Below are positions 563-31,280 of a stretch of 31,763 nucleotides of DNA, in pieces. A model generated the notes under the pieces. The model saw only the letters and a list, made by a program, of their open reading frames with translations, was not told the DNA's origin and did no database searches. A program made the translations under genes and the position numbers. This DNA is from a virus, in IMG/VR virus record IMGVR_UViG_3300037294_000038, positions 1-31,763 of that record, one strand, 5' to 3'. Numbering within the stretch: the stretch's first letter is position 1; each line of letters begins with the position of its first letter.

Positions 563-762
563 TTGGTTCTCCGATTAAGTTTATATTTTGCGTAACGAGT
601 ACCGTTACCGTCTATCATTATTGTTGCGATGTCAAAACCTTTGGCACGCAGTTTAAATACAATGTCAGCAAGTCGTGTGGCACGAAACAATTCGAACGCT
701 TGCCAACTGGTTATAGTCTTGCCTTTTTTGAGGTGAGTAAACACCGAATCAATCTTAGTCAT
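559..762 (-). CDS. Small helix-turn-helix protein (HTH_39-like)
   Basis: A 67-residue protein resembling the short phage HTH_39 type: KGKTITSWQAFELFRATRLAD forms the helix-turn-helix (about residues 13-33), followed by a wing-like IMIDGNGTRYAKYKL end. Such proteins sit next to phage recombination genes and are presumed DNA-binding; the target is unknown. It overlaps the upstream gene's stop by ATGA at 759-762 and the downstream ERF start by ATGA at 559-562, so it lies in the middle of a coupled leftward operon. The last codons encode the Shine-Dalgarno of ERF. The HTH call is reasonable; specificity and regulatory direction cannot be read. Confidence 0.75.
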   Translation of the reverse strand: MTKIDSVFTHLKKGKTITSWQAFELFRATRLADIVFKLRAKGFDIATIMIDGNGTRYAKYKLNRRTK

Positions 763-1569: not shown

Positions 1570-1598
1570 TTGCACAAGCTATAAATTTTAGCTATAAT
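1570..1598 (+). promoter_or_regulatory. Sigma70-type promoter for candidate small RNA 1
   Basis: TTGCAC (1570-1575), a 17-base spacer, TATAAT (1593-1598): a near-consensus sigma70 promoter with ideal spacing. It points rightward into a short non-coding unit that ends in an intrinsic terminator at 1657. Predicted transcription start about 1605. It is back to back with the leftward operator at 1505-1531. Confidence 0.75.
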
Positions 1599-1604
1599 TG
1601 GTCA

Positions 1605-1657
1605 GGTTTCTCCGACCTCTGGCTTGCAAGTGAATATTCCTTGCGAGTCTTTTTTTT
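1605..1657 (+). ncRNA. Candidate phage small RNA 1 with ribosome-binding-site-complementary 5' end
   Basis: Short transcription unit of about 53 nt between a near-consensus promoter and an intrinsic terminator, with no ORF. If transcription starts seven bases after the -10 box, the RNA begins GGUUUCUCCGACCUCU and then enters the terminator hairpin. GGUUUCUCCG is the exact complement of CGGAGAAACC, the Shine-Dalgarno of the exported Cys-rich gene (5131-5140), and matches 8-9 bases of the sites at 1143-1151, 1471-1479, 30948-30956 and 31264-31271. By analogy with trans-acting small RNAs it may occlude these ribosome-binding sites. Promoter, terminator and complementarity are seen; the regulatory role is inference. 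If transcription starts earlier, 1600-1617 could fold into a small hairpin presenting the same bases. Confidence 0.6.
1621..1657 (+). terminator. Intrinsic terminator of small RNA 1
   Basis: Arms GGCTTGCAAG (1621-1630) and CTTGCGAGTC (1640-1649) pair over 10 bp with two G-U wobbles around a nine-base loop, followed by eight T (1650-1657). Textbook Rho-independent terminator on the + strand. Confidence 0.8.
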
Positions 1658-1667: not shown

Positions 1668-1673
1668 TAACGT

Positions 1674-1827
1674 ATGCAATGGATTGGTAACCCAGCGCAG
1701 AGTTTAAGAGAGCGAACAGAACGCCTAAATTATGGCGGCTTCGTCAAAAGCTAGTAGTTAGATGCTCTTACATCACTACTTAGTGGCAAACCAAGCCTAA
1801 AGCCCCATAATTTAGGTGTTTTTTTTT
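1674..1827 (+). ncRNA. Candidate structured phage RNA 2 (~154 nt)
   Basis: Non-coding stretch bounded by a TATAAT box and an intrinsic terminator. The 3' part folds as a closed domain: CGCCTAAATTATGG (1722-1735) pairs with CCATAATTTAGGTG (1805-1818), 14 bp with one G-U. Inside it, AGTAGT + GATG pair with CATC + ACTACT around a CUCUUA loop (about 1753-1780). The 5' part is less obviously paired. I do not recognise it as tRNA, tmRNA, 6S, RNase P RNA, group I intron or a known riboswitch. No Shine-Dalgarno/ORF pair lies within it. It could be a regulatory RNA, a decoy, or the leader of the replication operon that starts 420 bases downstream. Confidence 0.5.
1722..1827 (+). terminator. Long-stem intrinsic terminator closing RNA 2
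   Basis: The 14-bp stem 1722-1735 / 1805-1818 is followed at once by nine T (1819-1827). The loop is about 70 bases and itself folded, which is unusual for a plain terminator and suggests a structured domain that also ends transcription. Confidence 0.6.
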
Positions 1828-2854: not shown

Positions 2855-3315
2855 GCTTGCCAATGAAAGCACTTGAAAGGTTGTTTCAAAGGTTAAGCGC
2901 AACGTATGGTTCAGAATTTATAAACAAATGGGATAAGTTACCTATTAGTGACGTTAAAACAGCATGGGCGCACGAGCTTTCATCATTTGCGGACAACTTG
3001 ACGGCTATCGGCTGGGCATTGGAAAACCTATCTGACCGTTGCCCGAACGCTATTGAGTTTAAGAAGCTATGCCGACAAGCACCTAAGCCAGACACTGTTA
3101 TGCTAGACACGCCTAAAGCCCCTGCGGACATAGTAGACACTGAGATTGCGGCAATGGTTAAGGCTGTGGTTCAGCAAACTAGCGCAGATGACAGCAAGCG
3201 TGATTACAAGGCATGGGCGAAACGGTTAAAAGCAAGACACGATGCGGGTGAGAAACTAGAGATATTTCAAGTACGCTCGTATAAGGTTGCCTTGGGCATA
3301 ACGGAGAAATACTAA
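2851..3315 (+). CDS. Lambda P-like helicase loader
   Basis: Likely DnaB-helicase loader of the replication protein P type. The 154 residues open with LERLFQRLSATYGSEFINKW, then W..EL (residues 30-34), a helical GWALENLSDRCPNAIEFKKLC segment typical of P-like proteins (the WPP-PEFR-LC pattern in relatives), and a Lys-rich helical end (KAWAKRLKARHDAGEKL). It is coupled by ATGA to the replication initiator and by TAATG to the DUF3310 gene. The order initiator-loader matches lambdoid replication modules. The assignment rests on motif pattern and position, because P-like loaders diverge quickly. Confidence 0.65.
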   Translation: MSLPMKALERLFQRLSATYGSEFINKWDKLPISDVKTAWAHELSSFADNLTAIGWALENLSDRCPNAIEFKKLCRQAPKPDTVMLDTPKAPADIVDTEIAAMVKAVVQQTSADDSKRDYKAWAKRLKARHDAGEKLEIFQVRSYKVALGITEKY

Positions 3316-4979: not shown

Positions 4980-5147
4980 ATGATTTTTCAGATAACCCAA
5001 GAGCATATAAAGGATAACAATCTTTTGTTTACAAAAGTGGGTTGGTGGTGCTATAAATCAAATGAATCACAAATTTTACATGTAAGAGAAACAAGAGCTG
5101 AAGTACAACAAATAGTATTTTATTTACAAACGGAGAAACCAAAATGA
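4980..5147 (+). CDS. Small hypothetical protein (55 aa)
   Basis: Unrecognised. Frame from ATG 4980 gives 55 residues starting MIFQITQEHIKDNNLLFTKV, with a Trp-rich VGWWCYKS and a basic helix near the end. No clear Shine-Dalgarno precedes it, the main weakness. Its final codons (TEKPK) contain the CGGAGAAACC ribosome-binding site of the next gene, and its stop overlaps that gene's ATG as ATGA, so it may serve mainly as a coupled leader. Confidence 0.4.
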   Translation: MIFQITQEHIKDNNLLFTKVGWWCYKSNESQILHVRETRAEVQQIVFYLQTEKPK

Positions 5148-5323: not shown

Positions 5324-5443
5324 ATGAAAAAATGTACGGACAACGGTAATCGTGTAAAGGCTGCGGTTAAAGCTGCAGGAAAAAAGCCAATGGGTAAAAA
5401 GCCTGCAGACAAAATGCCTGCGGACAAAAAGACAAAATATTAA
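5324..5443 (+). CDS. Lys-rich small protein (39 aa)
   Basis: A 39-residue, very basic, low-complexity protein: MKKCTDNGNRVKAAVKAAGK followed by repeated KKPADK/MPADKK units. Excellent Shine-Dalgarno AAGGAG about eight bases before the ATG. No fold is predicted; such charge suggests binding to DNA or RNA. It is paired with another basic microprotein immediately downstream. Function unknown. Confidence 0.6.
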   Translation: MKKCTDNGNRVKAAVKAAGKKPMGKKPADKMPADKKTKY

Positions 5444-5452
5444 GGTGATCAT

Positions 5453-5596
5453 ATGAAAGGTTTGTATGCGAACATTAAAGCAAAGAAAGACCGCATTAAG
5501 GCGGGTTCAGGCGAGAAAATGAACAAGGTAGGTAGCAAGAATGCACCGACGGCTAAAGATTTTAAGACTGCTGCAAAGACTGCTAAAAAGAAATAA
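5453..5596 (+). CDS. Conserved Lys-rich small phage protein (47 aa)
   Basis: A 47-residue basic protein, MKGLYANIKAKKDRIKAGSG ... KMNKVGSKNAPTAKDFKTAAK, ending KTAKKK. I recall the pattern MKGLYANI-AK--RI-AGSGEKM--PG-K-APTA--F as a recurrent small phage protein of unknown function found near head or packaging genes. AAGGTGATC precedes the ATG at 5453. It ends two bases before the ART-GNAT gene. Possibly a nucleic-acid-binding virion or packaging accessory; not established. Confidence 0.7.
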   Translation: MKGLYANIKAKKDRIKAGSGEKMNKVGSKNAPTAKDFKTAAKTAKKK

Positions 5597-5598
5597 GC

Positions 5599-7218
5599 AT
5601 GACGCTTGAAGAGTATTTGCAACAGTTACTTCCTGCACAACAGCCTGTTTATCAACCGACTGCTGTCCAAGGATTACTGACGCCAAGGCAAGACGAGGTT
5701 ACTGCGTATGACCCATCATTTCGCAGGCAAGGCTCAGACGCCACACAAGGGCTACTAGAGAGCATAGGAATGGATAGGGGATACTCACGCAGGGTAGCCC
5801 AGAATTTATTGGGTGGCGAGAGTAGCGTCATGCCCGGCGGTATCGGCATTGCGGACTTTGTGCCATTTGTGGGCTATGGTTTAGGCGCAGGTGAATCGAT
5901 AGAAGGCGTAGGGCAAGCCAAGAAAGACTTTGAGGCGGGGAACTATGGCTCTGCGGCATTGAATTATGCGCTGTCTAGCTTGGGTTTATTACCTGCGGTC
6001 GGTGCGGCTACGGCTTTTCATGGTACGCCAAACAAGGTTGTAGACAAGTTTAATCTTGATAAAGTTGGTACGGGTGAGGGCGCACAAGCCTATGGCCATG
6101 GTATTTACTTTGCTGAAAGCCCAATGGAAGCTCAAAAATATATGGGCAATTTTGATGAATTTAATACAAAAGTAAACAACGAAATATTAGATACACCTGT
6201 TTTAAAGCAAATTTTGCGATATCAAGGAAACCCAGAAAGATACATAAATTCTTTAGAACCACAAATTAAACGGCAACAAGAGATTTTAAAAAATGCAAGT
6301 AAAGAAGAAATAATGCCAGGATTGTCTGATTTTGACATCGCAAACATGGAATTAAATTCAATATTAAAAAATGTAGAAGAAGCTAAAAGTTATATTGGCA
6401 AAGACATTAAAAGCGTTCCTGTTGGAAACTTTTACAAAGTTGATATACCAGACGCAGATATACCTAAAATGCTAGATTGGGATAAATCGTTTAACCAGCA
6501 AACGCCTGAAGTGCGATCAGCATTCAATAAATTGTACTCAGACCCTAAAATTGCTGATTCTGATAATGCGGACTGGTTTAAGAATATAGACAAAGACCAA
6601 GCAAGCATGAGTGGAATGTATAGCAATTTAGCAACAAGCGACAATCTCAAAGGCGCGAAAGATGTGTCACGGTTATTGTCACAAGAAGGCGTAACAGGTG
6701 TTAGATACTTAGATGAAGGCAGTCGCGGTGCGGGCAAAGGCACATCAAACTTTGTTACGTTTAACCCTGAAGAGGTTAAGATACTAGAAGAGAACGGCAT
6801 CAACTACGATGAATTGATGAAAAGTGGTTTACTAGGAAGTAATGTACCAAGCAATGCAACTAATAAAGCTATTAGAAACGCAGATGATCAGCCATACGTT
6901 TCATATTTTAAACATCAAGACGAAATTTTAACTGAAATGGGTGACATTGAATATGGAGATCCCTACGTTTTAATTGATAAAGTGTATGTGCCTGATGATA
7001 TGCGAAAACAAGGAATCGGTAGAAAAATATTAAGAGAAAATTTACATGAAATGCAAAAAGAATATCCTGGTTTACCTATAAAACTAGCAGCTTACCCAGA
7101 CGCAAATACAATTAGCATGGACGATTTAGTAAAGTTTTATAAAAAAGAAAATTTTTATATTGATGAAGTGTTTGGCGATTCTGTAATAATGGAATTTGGT
7201 GGCATAATTAACAAATAA
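5599..7218 (+). CDS. ADP-ribosyltransferase-like / GNAT acetyltransferase fusion protein (possible packaged effector)
   Basis: Three parts. Residues 1-135: Gln/Pro-rich start, then a Gly/Ala-rich hydrophobic stretch (GIADFVPFVGYGLGAGE) like those in ejected virion proteins. Residues about 139-400: ART-type fold resembling the ADP-ribosyltransferases of phage polyvalent proteins, with FHGTP (His141), GTGEGAQAYGHGIYFAE (Tyr170) and, after a helical insert, GVTGVRYLDEGSRGAGKGTSN then FVTFNPEEVKIL, whose Glu could complete an H-Y-E triad. Residues about 435-535: GNAT domain with VLIDKVYVPDDMRKQGIGRK, the acetyl-CoA R-x-x-G-x-G loop. ARTs transfer ADP-ribose from NAD to host proteins, as T4 Alt does; the target here is unknown. 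It lies between basic microproteins and the modification genes. Weak Shine-Dalgarno. Confidence 0.7.
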   Translation: MTLEEYLQQLLPAQQPVYQPTAVQGLLTPRQDEVTAYDPSFRRQGSDATQGLLESIGMDRGYSRRVAQNLLGGESSVMPGGIGIADFVPFVGYGLGAGESIEGVGQAKKDFEAGNYGSAALNYALSSLGLLPAVGAATAFHGTPNKVVDKFNLDKVGTGEGAQAYGHGIYFAESPMEAQKYMGNFDEFNTKVNNEILDTPVLKQILRYQGNPERYINSLEPQIKRQQEILKNASKEEIMPGLSDFDIANMELNSILKNVEEAKSYIGKDIKSVPVGNFYKVDIPDADIPKMLDWDKSFNQQTPEVRSAFNKLYSDPKIADSDNADWFKNIDKDQASMSGMYSNLATSDNLKGAKDVSRLLSQEGVTGVRYLDEGSRGAGKGTSNFVTFNPEEVKILEENGINYDELMKSGLLGSNVPSNATNKAIRNADDQPYVSYFKHQDEILTEMGDIEYGDPYVLIDKVYVPDDMRKQGIGRKILRENLHEMQKEYPGLPIKLAAYPDANTISMDDLVKFYKKENFYIDEVFGDSVIMEFGGIINK

Positions 7219-7259: not shown

Positions 7260-7772
7260 ATGAAGCAAGAAATAGTACATAAGTCTATTGCGGACTTAAT
7301 TCCTTATGCAAACAATGCTCGAACGCATAGTGACACACAAGTAGCGCAAATAGCAGCAAGCATAAAAGAGTTTGGGTTTACTAACCCAATACTATTAGAC
7401 GGTTCAAACGGAATCATTGCAGGGCATGGCAGGCTCATGGCAGTACGTAAGCTAGGTATGGACACCGTGCCTTGCATAGAGCTATCACACCTAAGCGACA
7501 AACAAAGAAAAGCCTATATCCTTGCGGACAATCGCTTGGCTATGAATAGTGGCTGGGATACACAATTGTTAACGCTAGAGCTAAAAGGGCTAGATGACGA
7601 AGGCTTTGACTTAGAGATGCTAGGTTTTGATGCAGATGAGTTAAGTGAATTAATGTCAGATGTTAATTTTGACCCTGCTACAGAAGATGAACAAGGAAAA
7701 TTAGATGAGTTAGACCCAAAATGGATAATTTGCCCTAAATGTGGGAGCGAATTTGATGCAAGAAAAAATTAA
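7260..7772 (+). CDS. ParB/Srx-fold (ParB-like nuclease domain) protein with C-terminal CPxCG knuckle
   Basis: ParB N-terminal-like domain: IADLIPYANNARTHSDTQVA (residues 10-29), IAASIKEFGFTNPILLDG, GIIAGHGRLMAVRKLGMDTV (about 60-79) and LSDKQRKAYILADNRLA, the GHGR box being diagnostic. In phages this domain is often fused or adjacent to DNA methyltransferases and modification genes; here there is no methyltransferase domain. The C-terminus ends WIICPKCGSEFDARKN, half a zinc ribbon. The last codons also carry the start and GGGAG Shine-Dalgarno of the Mom-like gene, which overlaps by 17 bases. Start 7260 is preceded by TTAGGAG. Likely works with the neighbouring modification enzyme; the biochemical role is not established. 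Confidence 0.85.
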   Translation: MKQEIVHKSIADLIPYANNARTHSDTQVAQIAASIKEFGFTNPILLDGSNGIIAGHGRLMAVRKLGMDTVPCIELSHLSDKQRKAYILADNRLAMNSGWDTQLLTLELKGLDDEGFDLEMLGFDADELSELMSDVNFDPATEDEQGKLDELDPKWIICPKCGSEFDARKN

Positions 7773-8463
7773 CTTACACATTGATTGGGCTAGTCACGTA
7801 TCAGCAAAATTTGCTTGTTTGAACTGGCATTACAGTCAATGCTTGCCTGTCGGCAAATTAGTTAAAGTAGGCGTTTGGGAGGATAAAAAATTTATAGGTG
7901 TAGTTTTGTTTTCTCGCGGTGCAAGCCCTACTTTAGGAAATGCTTATGATTTAAATCAAACTAAATGCTGTGAACTTACAAGAGTTGCTTTAAATAAACA
8001 TTTAACACCTGTATCTAGAATATTATCAATAGCTATTAAATTTTTAAAAAACAACAACCCTAATTTAAAATTAATTGTTAGTTTTGCAGACGCTAATCAA
8101 AATCATTACGGAGGAATTTATCAAGCTAATAATTGGTTATATGCAGGAAAATCTAATCCTAAAAAAGATTACATCGGGCCTGATGGTAAAAAATACTTAT
8201 CTAGGCAAATTGCAGAATCAGGTTATGTTATGCAATTTGGAAAAAAAACAAAAGCATACAAACCAAGTGAATGTTTAGCAATTCCTGTTAAAGGTAAGCA
8301 CAGATATTTAATGCCGTTAGATGAAGAAATGCGTGCTAAAGTTGCATCATTAGCAAAGCCATACCCTAAGCGTGTCAAAAAGCAGGACTCTGAGAGCCCC
8401 TCGGAACTGGGCGGGGCAGTACCGACCGACACGCTCCATTTATTGCGAGGAACTAATGGCTAA
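7756..8463 (+). CDS. Mom-like adenine-modification enzyme
   Basis: Resembles phage Mu Mom, a GNAT-like enzyme that converts adenine in phage DNA to N6-carbamoylmethyl adenine and so blocks many restriction enzymes. Family features: KLVKVGVWEDKKFIGVVLFS near the start, ELTRVALNKHLTPVSRILSI (about residues 75-94), the signature LKLIVSFADANQNHYGGIYQ then ANNWLYAG (about 107-134), and KYL-LPLD then YPKR near the end, followed by a GGAVPTDTLH tail seen in other phage Mom-like proteins. The start at 7756 (MQEKINLHIDW) is preferred over GTG 7741 because GGGAG lies eight bases upstream. Overlap with the ParB-like gene implies translational coupling. It also overlaps the small terminase start. Confidence 0.8.
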   Translation: MQEKINLHIDWASHVSAKFACLNWHYSQCLPVGKLVKVGVWEDKKFIGVVLFSRGASPTLGNAYDLNQTKCCELTRVALNKHLTPVSRILSIAIKFLKNNNPNLKLIVSFADANQNHYGGIYQANNWLYAGKSNPKKDYIGPDGKKYLSRQIAESGYVMQFGKKTKAYKPSECLAIPVKGKHRYLMPLDEEMRAKVASLAKPYPKRVKKQDSESPSELGGAVPTDTLHLLRGTNG

Positions 8464-21670: not shown

Positions 21671-21969
21671 TGTTTAGACGCTTGCCACAGCAAGGCGGTC
21701 AACCTAGAGACATTTCTGAGGTTGTGAACGGCATAATCGATGGCAAAACAAACAACACGGGTTCAGTAACGTTAGCAACAGGTAACACAACAATTTTGAC
21801 AGACGAGCGCATAAGTCCAAGCAGTAAGATTGTGTTAATTCCAAAGACGTCAGATTCTGCGGGTGCAACTGGCGTCTACGTATCAGTTCAAACATTTGGT
21901 TCAGCAACTATATCGGATATAGGTAATGTTTCAACTAATAAAATTTATGATTATATTGTGGTAGGTTGA
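21670..21969 (+). CDS. Small conserved tail-region protein (99 aa)
   Basis: A 99-residue protein: an N-terminal arm (FRRLPQQGGQPRDISEVVNG) and a beta domain with NTTILTDERISPSSKIVLIP and GVYVSVQTFGSATISDIGN. Its N-TT-V-D-RI-P-S-I-L-P pattern is common in short phage virion proteins beside tail-hub genes. ATG overlaps the hub stop (TAATG). Function unknown. Confidence 0.65.
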   Translation: MFRRLPQQGGQPRDISEVVNGIIDGKTNNTGSVTLATGNTTILTDERISPSSKIVLIPKTSDSAGATGVYVSVQTFGSATISDIGNVSTNKIYDYIVVG

Positions 21970-30945: not shown

Positions 30946-30958
30946 TTGGTTTCTCCAG

Positions 30959-31147: not shown

Positions 31148-31260
31148 CAGACAAAACACGCTAGGAGAAGCGTCAGGAACGCGCAGGAAGCCACACAGTA
31201 AGCCAGCCTTGGTGTAATGTTAGCCTCGTACTTTTCTTTGCTGTATTCGCCTGTAATCAT
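31147..31260 (-). CDS. First gene of right leftward operon: 37-aa membrane peptide
   Basis: MITGEYSKEKYEANITPRLA followed by YCVASCAFLTLLLACFV: a charged start and one C-terminal membrane segment with three cysteines. Excellent ribosome-binding site AAGGAGAAAC. It is the first gene after the operator at 31281-31307, so it should be among the earliest products. Function unknown. Confidence 0.6.
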   Translation of the reverse strand: MITGEYSKEKYEANITPRLAYCVASCAFLTLLLACFV

Positions 31261-31280
31261 TGTGTTTCTCCTTGTTAATA

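Follow-up and report, generated by a model that had tools for sequence, protein, structure and literature searches.

A predicted phage small RNA whose 5' end is complementary to a ribosome-binding sequence common to early genes

We found a compact unit of promoter, predicted 53-nt RNA and intrinsic terminator between the divergent gene arms of a phage genome, which recurs in related contigs of uncultured phages and whose RNA would begin with a sequence complementary to the ribosome-binding sites (RBSs) of several early genes. An earlier note on this DNA had pointed to a promoter followed by such an anti-RBS small RNA, and direct reading of the sequence bears this observation out. We consider it fairly probable that the RNA acts in trans as an antisense repressor of an early regulon. 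The unit, its conservation, its predicted fold and its complementarity are read from the sequence and lead us to this proposal, of which transcription, the exact start, the direction of the effect and its timing are predictions.

The promoter-RNA-terminator unit and its conservation

The window, i.e. the whole stretch of DNA analysed here, is a 31,763-base IMG/VR virus record with terminase, portal, scaffold and capsid genes. Its leftward genes lie below position 1523 and from about 31,300 to 29,600, its rightward genes extend from 2249 to 29,429, and the non-coding stretch 1523-2249 separates the two arms. On the plus strand of this stretch, sequence reading places a promoter of the form TTGCAC-17 nt-TATAAT at 1570-1598 (-35 at 1570-1575, -10 at 1593-1598), 3' of which lies AGGTTTCTCCGACCTCTGGCTTGCAAGTGAATATTCCTTGCGAGTCTTTTTTTT (1604-1657). 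The promoter had been described as near-consensus, which is true of its perfect TATAAT; TTGCAC, however, agrees with TTGACA at only three of six positions and is weaker than claimed, and a promoter scan reached 10 of 12 only with spacings of 16 or 18 nt. The predicted RNA (1605-1657, plus strand, start at 1604 or 1605), delimited by the promoter and terminator positions and conserved in seven contigs, contains no ATG and has no coding capacity. An RBS function of 1605-1614 for a minus-strand gene was rejected, since no start codon lies 3' of it. The terminator proposed earlier is present as well: a stem at 1621-1649, predicted by folding and with 100% of its stem cells paired across the contigs despite one-sided changes, and a T8 run at 1650-1657 would end the RNA (feature 1621-1657, plus strand). 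An automatic terminator scan missed it because it permits loops of at most 8.

The first ten nucleotides, GGUUUCUCCG (1605-1614, plus strand), form the putative seed. Its core is presented in the loop of a predicted 5' hairpin, AGGUU-UCUCC-GACCU (1604-1618, plus strand), which alone is worth about -2.8 kcal/mol. Between -35 and -10 lies an invariant, imperfect and operator-like palindrome, AGCTATAAATTTTAGCT (1577-1593), which at up to 3 mismatches is the sole such site in the window, G001 and G002, while G011 has one extra site with 2 mismatches. This invariance and position suggest that a DNA-binding protein governs when the small RNA is produced.

Pattern and protein searches of viral contigs retrieved six more contigs with the unit, namely G001 (L003/L136), G002 (L083/L140), G003 (L137), G004 (L138), G005 (L139) and G011 (L156). 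The seed is identical in 7 of 7 contigs, and the 43-nt promoter block (1556-1598) does not vary, whereas differences occur at 24 of 76 positions of the leftward leader and promoter region, 3 of 9 positions of the terminator loop and 6 of the 15 bases after the T run. One-sided differences in the terminator stem (U-A/U-G, C-G/U-G, A-U/G-U) keep all pairs, and the aligned columns of the seven contigs hold no two-sided covariation in the hairpins. The 5' hairpin of G011 carries an A-to-G change before the seed and an A-to-C change after it; it is predicted to refold as GGGU/GCCC, with the seed core still in the loop. The flanks, in contrast, are exchanged: the first leftward gene differs among contigs (57 to 208 aa, with unrelated starts), and genes and RNAs are also swapped on the right. 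A constant unit between changing flanks is probably functional in its own right.

BLAST searches gave no match, whether annotated phages were compared with the region or plasmids with the unit, nhmmer of the unit against the gathered loci retrieved no diverged homologue, and the exact unit pattern is absent from GTDB genomes, so that this search provides no prophage or host link. Rfam has no match for the window at E-values up to 1 and nothing relevant for 1560-2120 at E-values up to 5.

Complementarity to early ribosome-binding sites

The complementarities listed in the earlier note proved to be exact. All 10 nt of the seed pair with the RBS of the Cys-rich 48-aa gene starting at 5144 (5131-5140, plus strand; -18.6 kcal/mol), 9 nt each with those of the leftward genes starting at 1466 (1471-1479; -15.0 kcal/mol), 1140 (1143-1151; -16.5 kcal/mol) and 30945 (30948-30956; -17.0 kcal/mol), and 8 nt with that of the leftward gene starting at 31260 (31264-31271; -12.9 kcal/mol), the last four on the minus strand. 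Two matches had been overlooked. One, a probable target, precedes the recombination gene ERF starting at 562 (GGAGAACC; PF04404, E 4e-35), whose RBS CGGAGAACC (565-573, minus strand) would pair with one bulged U at -15.3 kcal/mol; the other belongs to the start at 3315 (GGAGAAAU). Apart from ERF, the tested targets match no Pfam family.

The earlier note had conceded that matches of 8-10 bases might arise by chance. We compared 51 gene starts with 60,848 13-mers from both strands, not counting sequences antisense to these start windows, and required pairing of at least 8 nt. The gene list had been compiled manually from open frames, and single starts may be wrong, but the control used the identical list. 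Those 13-mers that begin at 1603-1606 match 7 gene-start windows, the best unrelated 13-mer 4, which speaks against chance. When the first 18 nt were shuffled, the summed duplex energy over seven targets was reached in 0 of 1000 mononucleotide and 1 of 1000 dinucleotide shuffles. With automatic gene starts, the seed site is the top anti-RBS site in the window, G001, G005 and G011; in G002 it ties with a site at 21715, which lies antisense to the RBS of a gene truncated by the contig end. Moreover, the complementarity starts at the predicted +1 and stops after 10 nt, which fits a seed, unlike a copied leader.

The target side shows a corresponding regularity. Every GGAGAAAC in the window and in G001-G005 either serves an early gene as its RBS or lies antisense to the seed. 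Among non-redundant GGAG...ATG starts, AAAC follows GGAG in 29 of 101 cases in the clade, as opposed to 4 of 164 in control relatives in which no such unit turned up (Fisher p 4e-10, an optimistic value because shared ancestry is ignored). The AAAC-bearing RBS spans about 11 gene families; in the window it belongs to 4 of the 10 leftward and 1 of the 41 rightward starts. An RBS shared across early small genes, as postulated earlier, is present, but the regulon would be partial, since the leftward genes at 947 (GGAGGATAT) and 762 (GGAGGCGC) have other RBSs without the motif.

The seed never varies in the seven contigs, which therefore hold no compensatory change of seed and target. The one target change concerns the first leftward gene of G011, whose RBS has turned into GGAGAAAUC and whose pairing to the seed survives through G-U. 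A search of G012, G013, G016 and MW202462 for an RNA of this type that pairs another seed with another RBS found none. The last of these (= L186), a complete circular relative with a 75% identical capsid protein, repeats another early RBS word, GGAGTAGYAAATG, at 22, 462, 2935, 31099 and 34481, and a search of this genome for an RNA complementary to it found none. Uniform RBSs can hence arise otherwise, and a shared RBS alone is no proof of RNA control.

Neighbouring elements

Directly downstream of the small RNA lies a second promoter (-10 at 1662-1667) with a second terminated RNA (T9 at 1819-1827). This second unit occupies 1662-1827 in the window, 18966-19043 in L150, 10653-10747 in L179, about 33,700-33,793 in L186 (-) and 5152-5250 in L042, and is also present in L152 (-). 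Relatives carry different sequences at this locus, one group of which forms an H-type pseudoknot of the order S1 - S2 - hairpin - S1' - S2' - T run, whose S1 (7-9 bp) and S2 (18-21 bp) are re-paired almost completely in different sequences. In G011 and G003 the T run ends about 10-15 nt before the replication gene, so that the RNA is probably a leader or attenuator there, and the pseudoknot version is possibly a new attenuator or leader family. The window copy of the second RNA has no Rfam match. It represents another version, which recurs (window 1673-1827, L015 about 1165-1315, L048 about 5430-5580, L026 about 6460-6615) and whose helices covary as judged by eye, with TAAGAG(A)GC/GCTCTTA for the window, GAGTGA/TCACTC for L048 and CTAGGA/TCCTAG for L026. 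The same locus in G002 (L150 19064-19180) contains a Betaproteobacteria-1 RNA (RF02932, E 6e-20) adjoining an HNH gene. This match, together with the distant relationship to the Methylophilales phage Venkman, suggests a host among the Betaproteobacteria.

A third conserved non-coding element follows at 1830-2060 in the window (L015 1320-1570, L048 5590-5830, L042 5260-5500, L018 590-835), with 72-74% DNA identity across phages and a helix that reads TACAGG/CCTGTA, TATAGG/CCTATG or CTAGAG/CTCTAG. It is followed by the apparent last codons of an HNH gene (YHPWG), has no Rfam match and is possibly intron- or homing-gene-related. Just before the RBS of the replication gene at 2249, its leader (2170-2248) carries two 8-bp arms, GCATCTCA and TGAGATGC, a possible translational control hairpin of this gene. 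Elsewhere in the window, 7741-8463 encodes a protein that matches the Mom DNA-modification family (PF25680, E 4e-44), adjoining a ParB-like/methyltransferase-related gene.

Proposed action, alternatives and known phage regulators

In the proposed mechanism, host RNA polymerase would make the 53-nt RNA as an independently transcribed and terminated molecule, whose 5' end would include GGUUUCUCC, as the proposal requires. The UCUCC loop of the 5' hairpin would contact GGAGA in a target mRNA, whereupon the hairpin would open and the first 8-10 nt would form a duplex of 8-10 bp with the Shine-Dalgarno sequence and the bases next to it (GGAGAAAC, often then C). At -13 to -18 kcal/mol, the target duplexes should be able to open this weak hairpin. 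Since they cover the Shine-Dalgarno sequence, they should also block 30S binding and lower translation of the regulon jointly, i.e. of the first leftward genes, the ERF gene, two small genes farther along the leftward arm and the small Cys-rich gene on the other strand. The earlier idea of a dedicated antisense RNA as a one-to-many early switch gains backing for a dedicated RNA with an anti-RBS 5' end, from the conservation in seven contigs, the genome-wide test and the RBS common to about 11 families, while a shut-off of the early programme is something that we infer.

The same locus could also be read as acting in cis on read-through into the rightward replication operon, be it as a promoter followed by a promoter-proximal terminator or as a put-like antitermination RNA; its RBS match would then be incidental. 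The unit does lie upstream of this operon and is followed by the second promoter and second terminated leader RNA, and the tandem pair of hairpins resembles an antitermination leader. The put-type RNA of HK022 acts in cis and makes RNA polymerase ignore downstream terminators; the likeness here is one of layout alone. We regard such a cis role as unlikely, because it leaves unexplained why the first 10 nt are the genome's best anti-RBS sequence and why the seed is invariant alongside a clade-specific RBS word, and because the downstream operon has its own promoter. Slightly less likely still appears a general Shine-Dalgarno-binding RNA or host regulator, whose UCUCC loop would act on host mRNAs with phage pairing as a side effect. 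The loop does fit the core that many Shine-Dalgarno sequences contain, and phage sRNAs such as PreS act on host mRNA, as described in a 2025 review (PMC12197685), but the match extends past this core into AAAC(C), a sequence that the early RBSs of the clade typically have and that is rare in relatives.

Least credible of all, and in our view quite improbable, is that the minus-strand copy of GGAGAAACC is a relic of early-gene exchange at RBSs, in which one RBS copy stayed behind before the promoter, or part of a DNA operator (GGTC-N10-GACC). Flanking genes are swapped right at GGAGAAAC in several contigs, and GGTC and GACC flank the seed in the window; however, the minus strand has no start codon after GGAGAAACC, the copy is invariant in seven contigs and its start falls precisely on the predicted +1, and G002 and G011 have GGTT/GGGTTG in place of the outer GGTC arm. 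A 53-nt RNA repressing an early regulon in trans is therefore the reading that we prefer.

The location of the unit invites a comparison with Cro-type early repressors of related phages, which occupy the same site between divergent early operons. The divergent region contains an annotated Cro-type gene in Venkman (gp19) and MW202481, and in MW202462 an open frame (34065-34283) of Cro appearance, judged by eye; an HTH_3 model gave a sub-threshold match in Venkman and none in MW202462 and MW202481. Where these more distant relatives have the Cro-type gene, the seven contigs have the small RNA, which, by an analogy of position alone, may be an RNA counterpart of the early-gene turn-down switch. 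Cro-type repressors are DNA-binding proteins that act at promoters, whereas the RNA would act at RBSs. That it replaces a Cro-type repressor, and that the RBS word brings acquired early genes under one post-transcriptional turn-down, is a tentative idea, which we hold to be possible rather than probable. If true, early genes newly brought into this mosaic early region would fall under the same control, provided that they have or gain the word.

Among known phage RNAs, OOP, sar and aQ are encoded opposite their target, and c4 is processed from the same transcript as its target. A cis antisense RNA of the OOP/sar/aQ type was rejected for the present case, as 1605-1657 overlaps no target gene and the nearest target RBS lies at 1471-1479. 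With its predicted own promoter and terminator and a conserved seed complementary to initiation regions elsewhere, the small RNA has these features of a trans-acting one. It matches no Rfam model, a further difference from c4. According to PMC12197685, OOP and aQ (lambda), sar (P22) and c4 act on single phage genes; the first three are likewise small phage RNAs that lower phage regulators by pairing, but each is antisense to one gene, whereas the RNA described here would have many targets elsewhere in the genome. The same source portrays VpdS (phage VP882) and PreS (lambda) as Hfq-bound, trans-acting phage sRNAs, of which VpdS affects phage and host mRNAs and PreS acts on host dnaN; unlike what is proposed for the present RNA, it mentions for neither that it reads an RBS word which phage early genes have in common. 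Within the open PubMed Central literature, the covered part of PMC12197685 describes no RNA whose single seed serves an RBS word that an early regulon shares. It presents c4 of P1 and P7 as a phage RNA that likewise blocks translation around a phage RBS, with complementary bases in loops; c4, however, acts on ant only, while the small RNA combines a predicted promoter and terminator of its own with a seed common to many targets. The closest phage antisense RNAs mostly target one phage gene, as far as this source goes, whereas a single seed to which many unrelated early genes respond through their RBS would constitute a regulon defined by the RBS itself, which would explain the common control of freely exchanged early genes.
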